Shown piece after piece: positions 10,552 through 13,865 of a stretch of 64,000 nucleotides of DNA (position 1 is its first letter; every line of letters begins with the position of its first letter). The notes below the pieces were generated by a model. It did not search any database. It was not told the DNA's origin and saw nothing but the letters and a program-made list of their open reading frames with translations. The stretch is from positions 1-64,000 of the forward strand of contig NZ_QOVG01000004.1 in NCBI RefSeq assembly GCF_010119615.1. Direction: 5' to 3'. The position numbers were made by a program, and so were the translations under genes. This stretch comes from Pseudoxanthomonas gei (GTDB lineage: Bacteria; Pseudomonadota; Gammaproteobacteria; Xanthomonadales; Xanthomonadaceae).

Positions 10552-12208
10552 GCTGTCGGAGGCCCAGCGGGTCCTGGTCTTCGCACCCACCGGGCGTGAT
10601 GCCCCCGCCACGGCAGATCTGTTGAGGCGGTCCGGCATCGGCGCAGACGTATGTAACGGCTATGAAGACCTGATGGCCGAGTTGCGGGCCGGGGCCGATG
10701 TCGCGTTCGTGGCCGAGGAAGCACTGTTCGGCAAGCCGCTGGATCCGCTGGCGGACTGGATCGATCACCAGGAAGCGTGGTCCGACCTGCCCTTTGTCAT
10801 CCTCACCAGTCGCCATGACGAACCGCGCGTCACGGCGTGGCGGCAGCAACTGGTACGCACGCTGGGCAACGTCGCCCTGCTGGAGCGACCCGTGCAGCCC
10901 CTGACCCTGGTCAGCGTGGTGCGGGCTGCCCTGCGCGCGCGCGACCGGCAGATGCAGGTGCGCTCGCTGCTGGGCGCTCGCGACCAGGCCGCCGCGCAGC
11001 TCGAGTACCTGGTGGTCCAGCGCACCGCACAATTGCAGCAGGTCAATGCGCAACTGCGCACTGAAATGACCGAGCGGGCGCGCATCGAGGAAAACCTGCG
11101 CCACGCCCAGAAGCTGGAAGCCCTGGGCCAGCTCACCGGTGGGGTTGCCCACGACTTCAACAACCTGCTGATGGTGATCACCGCCGGGCTGGACATGATG
11201 GAGCGCCCGCAGGAGCCCGCTCGCCGCGAACGCACCCTGCAGGGCATGCGCCATGCCGCCCAGCGCGGCGCCGGCCTGACCCGGCAGTTGCTCGCCTTCT
11301 CGCGCAGCCATGCGCTGCGCCCTGAAACGGTCGACCTCTCGCAGCACCTGCATGACATGAAGGAACTGCTGGGTCGCAGCCTCAGCGGCAACATGCAGGT
11401 GCACGTGCACATGGCCCCGGACCTGTGGCCGGTGCAGGTTGATCCGGGCGAACTGGAGCTGGTGCTGCTGAACCTGGCGGTGAATGCGCGCGACGCGATG
11501 GATGGCGGCGGCGTGATCACGGTCCGCGGTGAAAACGTGGCCAGCCACAATGGCAAGGATTTCGTCAGCCTGGCGGTATCCGACACCGGGTCGGGCATGT
11601 CCGATGAGGTCAAGGAACACGTGTTCGAACCGTTCTTCACCACCAAGGACGTGGGCAAGGGATCGGGCCTGGGCCTGGCCCAGGTGTATGGCTTTGCCCA
11701 GCAGTCCGGCGGCACCGTGGAAGTGGATTCCGCGCTGGGCCGCGGCACCACCATCACCCTGCTGCTGCCACGCTCGCACAACGCCCTGCCGGGGGCCCAG
11801 GCGCCGGGCCTGCCCAGCGGCGAAGTGGTACCCATGCACTCCAGCGGATGCGTGCTGCTGGTCGAGGACGACAGCGAAGTGGCCGCACTGGTCGAGGACA
11901 TGCTGCGCGACCTGGGCTACCAGGTGATCAGCGCCAGCAGCGCAGCCGCTGCGCTCGGAGCCCTCGCCAACGAAAGGCGGATCGACCTGGTGTTCTCCGA
12001 CATCATGATGCCCGGCGGCACCAGCGGCATCGAACTGGCGCGCGAAGTACGCGTGCGCCGCCCCGGCCTGCCCATCCTGTTGACCAGCGGCTTCGCCGAA
12101 CGCAGCCGCAACGATGCGCTGGCGTTGAACATCCCGGTGCTGGCCAAGCCTTACGGCCTGGAAGAGCTGAGGCACGCGATCGCGCAGTTGCCGATCAGGG
12201 TTGGCTGA
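10544..12208 (+). CDS. Hybrid histidine kinase with N- and C-terminal receiver-like domains
   Basis: This 554-residue cytoplasmic protein has four parts. An N-terminal receiver-like fold (about 1-125) lacks a clear phospho-aspartate motif and may be degenerate. A coiled-coil linker follows (VQRTAQLQQVNAQLRTEM region). The kinase core has its histidine near residue 202 in GGVAHDFNNLL and a HATPase domain (NLAVNARDAM, FFTTKDVGKGSGLGLAQ). The C-terminal receiver carries its aspartate near residue 485 in VFSDIMMPGGTSG and the lysine in LAKPYG. The start at 10544 lies inside the last codons of the kaiC-like gene. Kinases paired with KaiC-like ATPases of this type may be controlled by them, but the input signal is unknown. 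Confidence 0.88.
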   Translation: MTELSEAQRVLVFAPTGRDAPATADLLRRSGIGADVCNGYEDLMAELRAGADVAFVAEEALFGKPLDPLADWIDHQEAWSDLPFVILTSRHDEPRVTAWRQQLVRTLGNVALLERPVQPLTLVSVVRAALRARDRQMQVRSLLGARDQAAAQLEYLVVQRTAQLQQVNAQLRTEMTERARIEENLRHAQKLEALGQLTGGVAHDFNNLLMVITAGLDMMERPQEPARRERTLQGMRHAAQRGAGLTRQLLAFSRSHALRPETVDLSQHLHDMKELLGRSLSGNMQVHVHMAPDLWPVQVDPGELELVLLNLAVNARDAMDGGGVITVRGENVASHNGKDFVSLAVSDTGSGMSDEVKEHVFEPFFTTKDVGKGSGLGLAQVYGFAQQSGGTVEVDSALGRGTTITLLLPRSHNALPGAQAPGLPSGEVVPMHSSGCVLLVEDDSEVAALVEDMLRDLGYQVISASSAAAALGALANERRIDLVFSDIMMPGGTSGIELAREVRVRRPGLPILLTSGFAERSRNDALALNIPVLAKPYGLEELRHAIAQLPIRVG

Positions 12209-12524
12209 GGGTCCGACGCCGTTGGCATTGGACTTTCTGAAGTCCCGGCCTACGCGGCTCGTACCTGCTACGCGACAGCGATATCCACTGGACTGGTGCC
12301 ACGCGCTCCTGCGATGGGAGAAGCCTGAGGCAACACCGGCAGCAGCCCTATGTCGCGTCCGCGGCTGCCTGCCGCGGCGCTCGACATGGAAACCAGCGAC
12401 GTCACGCGTGCTGCCATGGAACCGCGGGACCGCCGATTGCCTGTTGTGCTCTCAGGCAGCCCCAGCGTCCACGCATTGGCCAGCGACTCCCGCTTGCCCA
12501 CAACCGCCCTGCCGTCGCTGACGG

Positions 12525-12784
12525 CGCGTAGCAATGCGCCTGGTGCGACCAGCGAGCTTTTGATGATTGCTGTTGGTGCCCTGGCGCGGGAATCCAACCG
12601 CGCCACCATCGCCTGTCGCGGACCTTTCCGCCGAACGCGTCGCAACGCGCCTGTGGGGCGAACTGCGGCAAGCGGTTTTTGGTGCCCGGAGCCGGAATCG
12701 AACCGCGCCACCACTGCGTATCAGCGACCCTTCCGCAGAACGCGTCGCAACGCGCCTTTGAGGCGAACTGCGGCAAGCGGCTTT
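12525..12784 (-). repeat. Degenerate tandem array repeating the tRNA-Leu 3' end
   Basis: Downstream of tRNA-Leu (towards lower coordinates) there are two clear units of 105-106 bases and one weaker unit. Each unit ends with a copy of the last part of the tRNA gene: 12680-12705 matches 12785-12810 exactly (26 bases), and 12574-12600 is a mutated copy. Between them lies a shared spacer containing CGCGTCGCAACGCGCCT and GCGAACTGCGGCAAGCGG. None of the partial copies can form a tRNA. The remaining gene-free stretch 12209-12524 shows only a further faint copy of the spacer near 12525 and no gene. Confidence 0.8.
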
Positions 12785-12871
12785 TGGTGCCCGGAGCCGG
12801 AATCGAACCGGCATGGGGTTGCCCCCGGCAGATTTTAAGTCTGATGCGTCTACCAATTTCGCCACCCGGGC
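12785..12871 (-). tRNA. tRNA-Leu (anticodon TAA)
   Basis: The acceptor GCCCGGG pairs with CCCGGGC. The D-arm is TGGCGAAATTGGTAGACGCA, the anticodon stem CAGA/TCTG encloses TAA, and a long variable arm (GCCGGGGGCAACCCC) is typical of leucine tRNAs. The T-arm is GCCGG-TTCGATT-CCGGC and the CCA end is encoded (12785-12787). It reads UUA, a rare codon in so GC-rich a genome. No intrinsic terminator follows; the tandem array does. Confidence 0.93.
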
Positions 12872-12922
12872 AAGGAGTGCGGCCTGCATTTGCGGGCACG
12901 GCCGATGATACGGGCCAACAAC

Positions 12923-12950
12923 AAAAAACGCCCGCGTAAGCGGGCGTTTT
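12923..12950 (-). terminator. Terminator between tRNA-Cys and tRNA-Leu
   Basis: The stem AACGCCCGC/GCGGGCGTT with a four-base loop is followed on the minus strand by TTTTTTGTTG. It ends the tRNA-Cys transcript, so tRNA-Leu must have its own promoter in the roughly 50 bases between. Confidence 0.85.
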
Positions 12951-12979
12951 CTGGCGAGACACCCAGCGTTGCGGCTGGA

Positions 12980-13053
12980 TGGAGGCCTGGGTCGGAATCG
13001 AACCGGCGTACGCGGCTTTGCAGGCCGCTACATGACCACTCTGCCACCAGGCC
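12980..13053 (-). tRNA. tRNA-Cys (anticodon GCA)
   Basis: The acceptor GGCCTGG pairs with CCAGGCC. The anticodon stem GCGGC/GCCGC encloses CTGCAAA (anticodon GCA), the T-loop is TTCGATT, and the CCA end is encoded at 12980-12982. It lies between tRNA-Leu and tRNA-Gly on the same strand, with terminators on both sides. Confidence 0.93.
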
Positions 13054-13111
13054 GGTGACTTGTTGCGCCGAGACTGGCGCAATCACAGGGCGTTTTCAAG
13101 CGCCCTACAAA

Positions 13112-13136
13112 ACAAAACCCCGATAACGGGGTTTCG
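13112..13136 (-). terminator. Terminator of tRNA-Gly
   Basis: The stem AAACCCCG/CGGGGTTT with an ATAA loop is followed on the minus strand by GTTTTGTTTTG, starting ten bases past the tRNA-Gly 3' end. Confidence 0.85.
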
Positions 13137-13145
13137 TCTTGAAAC

Positions 13146-13865
<720 letters not shown>

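Follow-up and report, generated by a model that had tools for sequence, protein, structure and literature searches.

Tandem units and palindromic repeats at gene ends

In the tyrT operon of Escherichia coli, tandem units stand behind a tRNA gene, each with the tRNA end, and the operon gives the rtT RNA and the tpr reading frame. Gene ends are also duplicated by genomic islands that integrate at tRNA 3' ends, a process that keeps the gene whole. The leuZ gene of E. coli belongs to a Gly-Cys-Leu cluster like the one described below. A regulatory 3' trailer is known for leuZ (PMC8166272).

Tandem arrays have likewise been described for dispersed palindromic repeats. The SMAG (GTAG-REP) repeats of Stenotrophomonas maltophilia form tandem arrays that include flanking DNA; in one example, a 72-base dimer of the repeat and a 31-base flank make up units of 103 bases. 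The number of units varies between strains (PMC2613905). The account of the GTAG and CGTC REP superfamilies presents them as short hairpin repeats that lie mostly behind genes, some of them inside genes and some clustered with their flank, and defines the CGTC type by a stem of 8-9 pairs with A-T at the first two positions and as having no dedicated transposase (PMC3733652). The same paper describes the Rickettsia palindromic elements (RPE) as small palindromic repeats that can sit inside genes (PMC3733652). Tandem arrays of a REP plus its flank are already known; in the array described here the element is another one, the junction is recurrent and the flank is usually a gene end.

The array behind tRNA-Leu(TAA) in Pseudoxanthomonas gei

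The array lies in a window of 64,000 nucleotides, the whole stretch of DNA that was analysed, behind the tRNA-Leu(TAA) gene. This gene is the last of a minus-strand cluster with the order Gly(GCC)-Cys(GCA)-Leu(TAA), which is preceded by a CDP-alcohol phosphatidyltransferase gene (pgsA-like, 13215-13865; Pfam CDP-OH_P_transf). The order in the array is tRNA(S0)-E1-S1-E2-S2, in which S denotes the tRNA end and E a dispersed element. E was searched for with two models whose E-values are rough owing to a short calibration: R1, which consists of 29 of 38 distinct E copies and includes both copies of the window, and R2, which has 24 rows, one of them (C50) from the same genome, the two window copies and three odd-shaped rows having been left out.

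12785..12871, minus strand: tRNA-Leu(TAA) gene (ARAGORN; Rfam tRNA match)
12768..12809, minus strand: S0, the repeated part of the tRNA gene plus trailer, from the T-stem GG (GGTTCGATT...) up to E1 (alignment of the downstream copy to the upstream sequence)
12703..12767, minus strand: E1, first copy of the dispersed 65-base element, with hairpin core at 12741-12756 and terminal GGCGCGG at 12703-12709 (R1 61.9 bits; R2 55.7 bits, E-value 2.9e-8)
12663..12704, minus strand: S1, copy of the tRNA 3' end plus trailer, 1 mismatch in 42, beginning at the final GG of E1
12598..12662, minus strand: E2, second copy of the dispersed 65-base element, with hairpin core at 12636-12651 and terminal GGCGCGG at 12598-12604 (R1 66.5 bits; R2 56.3 bits, E-value 2.3e-8)
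12574..12599, minus strand: S2, worn third copy of the tRNA 3' end (GGTTGGATTCCCGCGCCAGGGCACCA) (sequence, alignment)
12525..12539, minus strand: hairpin core, 2 mismatches, perhaps what is left of a third element, without R1 or R2 match

Tandem Repeats Finder assigns to 12569-12810 a period of 105 with 2.3 copies, 87% matches and a score of 368. Ungapped, the repeat consists of two 105-base units with 85% identity and a spacing of exactly 105, and the 42 bases that begin with the T-stem GG of the tRNA and extend up to E recur with a single mismatch. The tandem array that an earlier note on this DNA had recognized is real, with two units 105 apart and 85% alike. Of the third, decayed unit that the note had added, the worn tRNA end at 12574-12599 holds up, but a whole unit does not, as R1 and R2 find only two copies: R2, free of window copies, recovers both units at the E-values given above and nothing else there below 0.4, and the hairpin-core pattern with two mismatches, as seen at 12525-12539, is no commoner there than its reversed control. 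The nearest copy does share an identical stretch with the tRNA gene, although by eye it counts 29 bases and not the 26 first reported.

The absence of an ordinary terminator behind tRNA-Leu agrees with a simple scan, whose sole minus-strand site lies between tRNA-Cys and tRNA-Leu; the scan is weak evidence, because its sites (two, against a shuffle mean of 1.4) are no more numerous than in shuffles. Rfam searches of 11800-13400 with E-values up to 5 returned the three tRNAs and matches far under the family cut-offs, and nothing similar to the array units was found in plasmid and phage collections. The four neighbouring frames tested with Pfam encode a KaiC-type ATPase, a histidine kinase, the CDP-alcohol phosphatidyltransferase and UvrC, with no integrase among them.

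A dispersed element with a hairpin and a terminal GGCGCGG

E is a dispersed element of 64-65 bases with the build TTCRCC-N5-hairpin-N30/31-GGCGCGG, in which mostly five bases separate TTCRCC from the hairpin GGCGCG(T/C)TGCG(A/G)CGCG and 30-31 variable bases follow; one of the searches had already asked for about that build, another, looser one less so. The core pattern TTCGCC-N3-8-GCGCGTTGCGACGCG was found at 20 places in 11 of the 38 genomes of the genus and its reversed control at none. With E-values up to 0.05, R1 matches in 30 of these 38 genomes (229 matches in total, 0 to 37 per genome), and at family level, with E-values up to 0.001 and stricter filters, in 51 of 247 genomes and 14 of 54 genera. 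The window's own genome has four R1 matches, two of them in the array and one, among the matches listed, on contig C50; its parC gene (L296) is followed by E and then by a copy of the gene end, and its M23 peptidase gene (L177) by what appears by eye to be an E remnant only.

When 99 distinct copies are aligned to the model, 98.4% of the hairpin cells are paired, whereas shifted partners reach 72.0% at most, and the innermost pair is C-G in 58 copies, U-A in 40, U-G in one and unpaired in none. The number of cells paired, the number of cells changed on both sides and the covariation score are higher than in all 500 shuffles, while the two remaining of the five measures, pairs changed on both sides and pair types, are matched by 45 of the 500; these counts are inflated by relatedness and rest mainly on one base pair. 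Rfam searches of five E-bearing loci returned only tRNAs at the cut-offs.

Among the loci examined, E lies mostly outside genes. A class I tRNA synthetase gene (valS-like; Pfam tRNA-synt_1, Anticodon_1) of genus g26 holds an antisense E that keeps the frame unbroken (L212, at about 1501), L231 representing the same site and L213 looking alike by eye. Four further loci of genera g62 and g26 (L226, L227, L228, L229) have opposed E pairs about 25 bases apart. Another tandem array, with a period of about 77 by eye and containing AGTTCGCC and a GCGCATTGCGATGCG hairpin, is found at about 350-540 of L088 (G019:C12) and is perhaps a sister family of E. A record called a Verrucomicrobiia MAG (L142) has one core-pattern match without the GGCGCGG end, which may be contamination or chance.

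Being dispersed, hairpin-bearing and clustered with its flank, E is a REP-type repeat in the wide sense. It shares with the SMAG repeats the palindromic repeat reiterated in tandem with its flank, but SMAG has GTAG and another sequence (PMC2613905), and no GTAG tag is present at the hairpin foot in the consensus of the 99 distinct E copies. With the GTAG and CGTC superfamilies it has in common a hairpin repeat behind genes and a copy inside a gene (the synthetase gene of L212); the CGTC type has no dedicated transposase (PMC3733652), and for E too the search turned up none. In contrast to these, E is 64-65 bases long and has one 7-pair hairpin at a fixed distance of 30-31 bases from GGCGCGG. 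The outer two of its seven pairs are mostly G-U, which is not the CGTC REP stem, and TTCGTC stands directly behind the hairpin in only 18 of the 99 copies. E also resembles RPE (PMC3733652) in being small, palindromic and able to sit inside genes, but is set apart by lying, among the loci examined, mostly outside them. No description of E, of its junction or of the reuse of one tRNA site was found in the literature searched, and a motif search of the literature with three 15-letter forms returned no paper; these searches are the sole basis on which newness is claimed, and they are not proof that E is unpublished.

A second array at tRNA-Leu(TAA) in another genus

A search for GGGCACCA-N12-42-core in 395 genomes of the family, which covers only GGGCACCA ends followed by the exact core, matched two genomes, the window's own and G343, an 86% complete genome of another genus. 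Here too the host gene is tRNA-Leu(TAA), with tRNA-Gly and tRNA-Cys on the opposite strand, and the order is tRNA-E-S-E-S followed by other sequence, with a period of 104 and three intact tRNA ends. The E copies of G343 reach 36.5-36.7 bits with R1 and are weaker than those of the window. The junction, GGCGCGG directly followed by TTCGA, is common to both genomes, and the copies in G343 have the T-stem of G343 itself, hence the copies were made locally in each lineage.

Among related genomes, in which the earlier note had proposed to look for the array, none of the 37 congeners (one genome per species) matches the units beyond short stretches, but this one genome of another genus does have such an array. 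At the tRNA-Leu loci of 33 of the 37 congeners, no E was found with an E-value below 0.06.

The same anatomy behind protein genes

E stands between copies of a gene end behind parC, the M23 peptidase gene, polA, the RDD gene and others. By Pfam, the host genes encode topoisomerase IV A (parC), M23 peptidase, RDD, DNA polymerase A, UPF0093, TldD/PmbA-type and cytochrome c-type proteins, and one host gene is without a Pfam match. The M23 peptidase gene is followed by one to four E in many congeners, most of these E copies having a copy of the gene end from GGTTCGA on behind them; parC arrays occur in genera g1, g30, g36 and g48, and the RDD gene array has seven E copies with a period of 121. E-free gene ends are found at M23 and at parC. 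At the M23 gene, the end before E in G028 (L162/L163 comparison) differs from that in G021 over a short stretch starting with GGTTCGA, which by eye resembles the end in G023, as if exchanged.

The junction was surveyed in 86 loci chosen for arrays or for parC or M23 ends. A copy of the front sequence stands behind E in 44 loci (45 rows, one locus counting on both strands), 31 loci have an E-like match without a copy at the score limit, and 11 have no E-like match. Of the 45 rows, 29 have a copy that begins precisely with the last GG of GGCGCGG, while in 14 it begins 1-12 bases earlier and in two (L180, L319) 9-10 bases later, the rows not being independent, as parC and M23 make up 34 of them and four genomes are included twice (L214/L304, L221/L315, L232/L312, L274/L298). 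Copies start before the GG where gene and element share more bases, or where the front stretch is itself E (L108). The copied stretch S is about 30 to 80 bases long, which is unusual for a target duplication.

In 60 further loci of the genus, chosen outside the arrays already examined, a copy at the GG is clear in four (L269, L274, L289, L291) and weak in two (L238, L250), so that single E copies without a copied end are common. By eye, several of these single copies sit between the halves of a GTAG-type REP.

Origin of the array

The array was probably made by E, a dispersed REP-like element whose entry or multiplication was accompanied by duplication of the gene end next to it. Behind protein genes, and in G343 behind that genome's own tRNA-Leu, the same E and junction go with a copy of the local gene end, which argues for the tRNA end being copied flank. 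On this reading, no tRNA-related function has to be invoked for the tRNA-like repeats.

E would have entered behind tRNA-Leu and duplicated the tRNA end from the T-stem GG on, leaving the tRNA intact; alternatively, a resident E might have been joined back to the T-stem GG. Two GG sites would be cut or joined, the one that ends E and another about 30-80 bases before it. The S+E unit would then have been doubled through recombination or slippage involving the copies. Events that leave the gene whole would be favoured by selection, which would account for the intact tRNA and for the stop codons in the copies. The E hairpins could possibly affect the 3' trailer of the transcript.

No moving enzyme for E was found by counting Y1 transposase and reverse transcriptase matches in the 38 genomes. 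The number of Y1 (RAYT-type) transposase matches does not correlate with that of E (rho 0.10), and G006, a 94% complete genome, has 20 E matches and no Y1_Tnp match. IS91-like rolling-circle movement would be a further conceivable route. A standard reverse transcriptase was considered because the duplicated ends are long, and its match number does not correlate with that of E either (rho 0.05): RVT_1 has a match in 13 of the 38 genomes (12 over the cut-off), among them the copy-rich G008 and G015 (14 E each), and is absent from the window's genome and from the copy-rich G035 (37 E), G006 (20) and G061 (12).

A more far-reaching reading, which we put forward tentatively, is that E represents a new kind of mobile mini-element, about 65-80 bases long, whose entry site is a GG in the last codons of a gene or in the tRNA T-stem, and that it supplies or duplicates the gene end so that the gene stays whole, and multiplies as a cassette of gene end plus E. 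Before E, parC ends in DVQ, EVQ or DVE in 25 of 26 E-positive loci, and the end is AVE or GVE in 8 of the 12 E-negative loci, counts in which two E-positive loci (L316, L317) may be chance matches in GC-rich DNA and two E-negative ones (L294, L310) resemble, by eye, a decayed E. In the window's genome, AVD is the end of the copy behind E, and the last parC copy in L217 ends in AVE. These differences would fit cassettes that bring their own gene end; however, the copy behind E ends like the front gene in nine E-positive parC loci, and shared descent is another possible cause. In G023 (L295), parC ends in DVQ as in E-bearing genomes, with no E behind it, possibly after the loss of a copy.

Alternative explanations

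The alternatives considered below overlap with each other and with the copying of flank by E, and their probabilities do not sum to one. It is unlikely that the array arose by chance slippage, as a plain tandem duplication with E as a bystander. Copy number does vary among species, from one to four E at M23 to seven at the RDD gene, but in 43 of 45 rows the junction coincides with one and the same E end or is no more than 12 bases away from it, and this holds at different host genes. Slippage on 2-3 shared bases would not pick this E base each time. By eye, many arrays moreover read S-E-S and then another flank, though some finish in E with no further S (L214, L215, L222).

The proposal that the array is a scar of integrating islands, made of attachment-site remnants at the tRNA, is quite unlikely, even though tRNA-Leu(TAA) itself seems to attract islands: in G019 (L031), a phage-type integrase gene stands behind it (frame from 1765 on), and other genomes have partial or second tRNA-Leu ends, which suggests that tRNA-Leu(TAA) is an island site in the group. 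As with islands that integrate at tRNAs, a gene end is duplicated without loss of the whole gene, and both genera make use of one T-stem/T-loop position. In contrast to these, the unit measures about 105 bases and contains no integrase, and several different host genes are involved, the protein genes having the same anatomy. The four neighbouring window frames tested are not integrases either, and the spacer is E, which is found away from tRNAs (no tRNA in 20 other E loci, nor in another 60). Of the earlier ideas, a scar of repeated site-specific integration nevertheless comes nearest to the truth.

Very doubtful is an independent parallel of the E. coli tyrT operon, i.e. a tRNA-specific array kept for a stable or decoy RNA with tRNA 3' ends. 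The likeness on which the earlier note had based this comparison stands, as units lie behind a tRNA gene and contain the tRNA 3' end in each; a second genus has an array with intact copies at this tRNA as well, and the 3' trailer of leuZ acts as a regulatory sponge in E. coli (PMC8166272). However, the core of the unit is a dispersed element that also stands behind protein genes, whose ends are copied by the same E with the same junction, and the array is found in none of the 37 congeners. RtT gave no row among 4227 Rfam families (cmscan, 11800-13400, E-values up to 5), a basic frame with a start of its own is lacking, and tRNA plus array folds only a little more stably than shuffled sequences do (z -1.5; 8 of 100 equally good). 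A processing signal or a decoy for tRNA enzymes, also suggested at first, is not supported, given the copying of protein-gene ends by the same E at the same junction. By analogy with leuZ, the tRNA-Leu trailer may nevertheless have an RNA role.

That the units encode a repeated arginine-rich protein like tpr is extremely improbable. The frame is open throughout, and as a matter of arithmetic its period is indeed 35 codons. However, the ATG with which the 145-codon frame begins lies upstream of the tRNA, further frames are open on either strand, the 145-aa and 162-aa frames have no Pfam match up to an E-value of 0.01, and a protamine-like frame is at odds with the 13 array periods (94, 100, 101, 104, 105, 106, 115, 116, 121, 122, 123, 124 and 139), among which only 105 and 123 are divisible by three.

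Meaning for arrays at gene ends

If E has copied its flank, as we consider probable, a puzzling array of tRNA ends is explained without a tRNA-specific function, and a dispersed element whose junction recurs can give rise to arrays that look like this. Should the junction reflect an enzyme, there would be an undescribed way by which very small DNA elements are moved or multiplied where housekeeping genes end, which would also cover the use of one tRNA site in two genera. Other arrays of tRNA ends, that of tyrT in E. coli among them, can be tested in the light of such copying.
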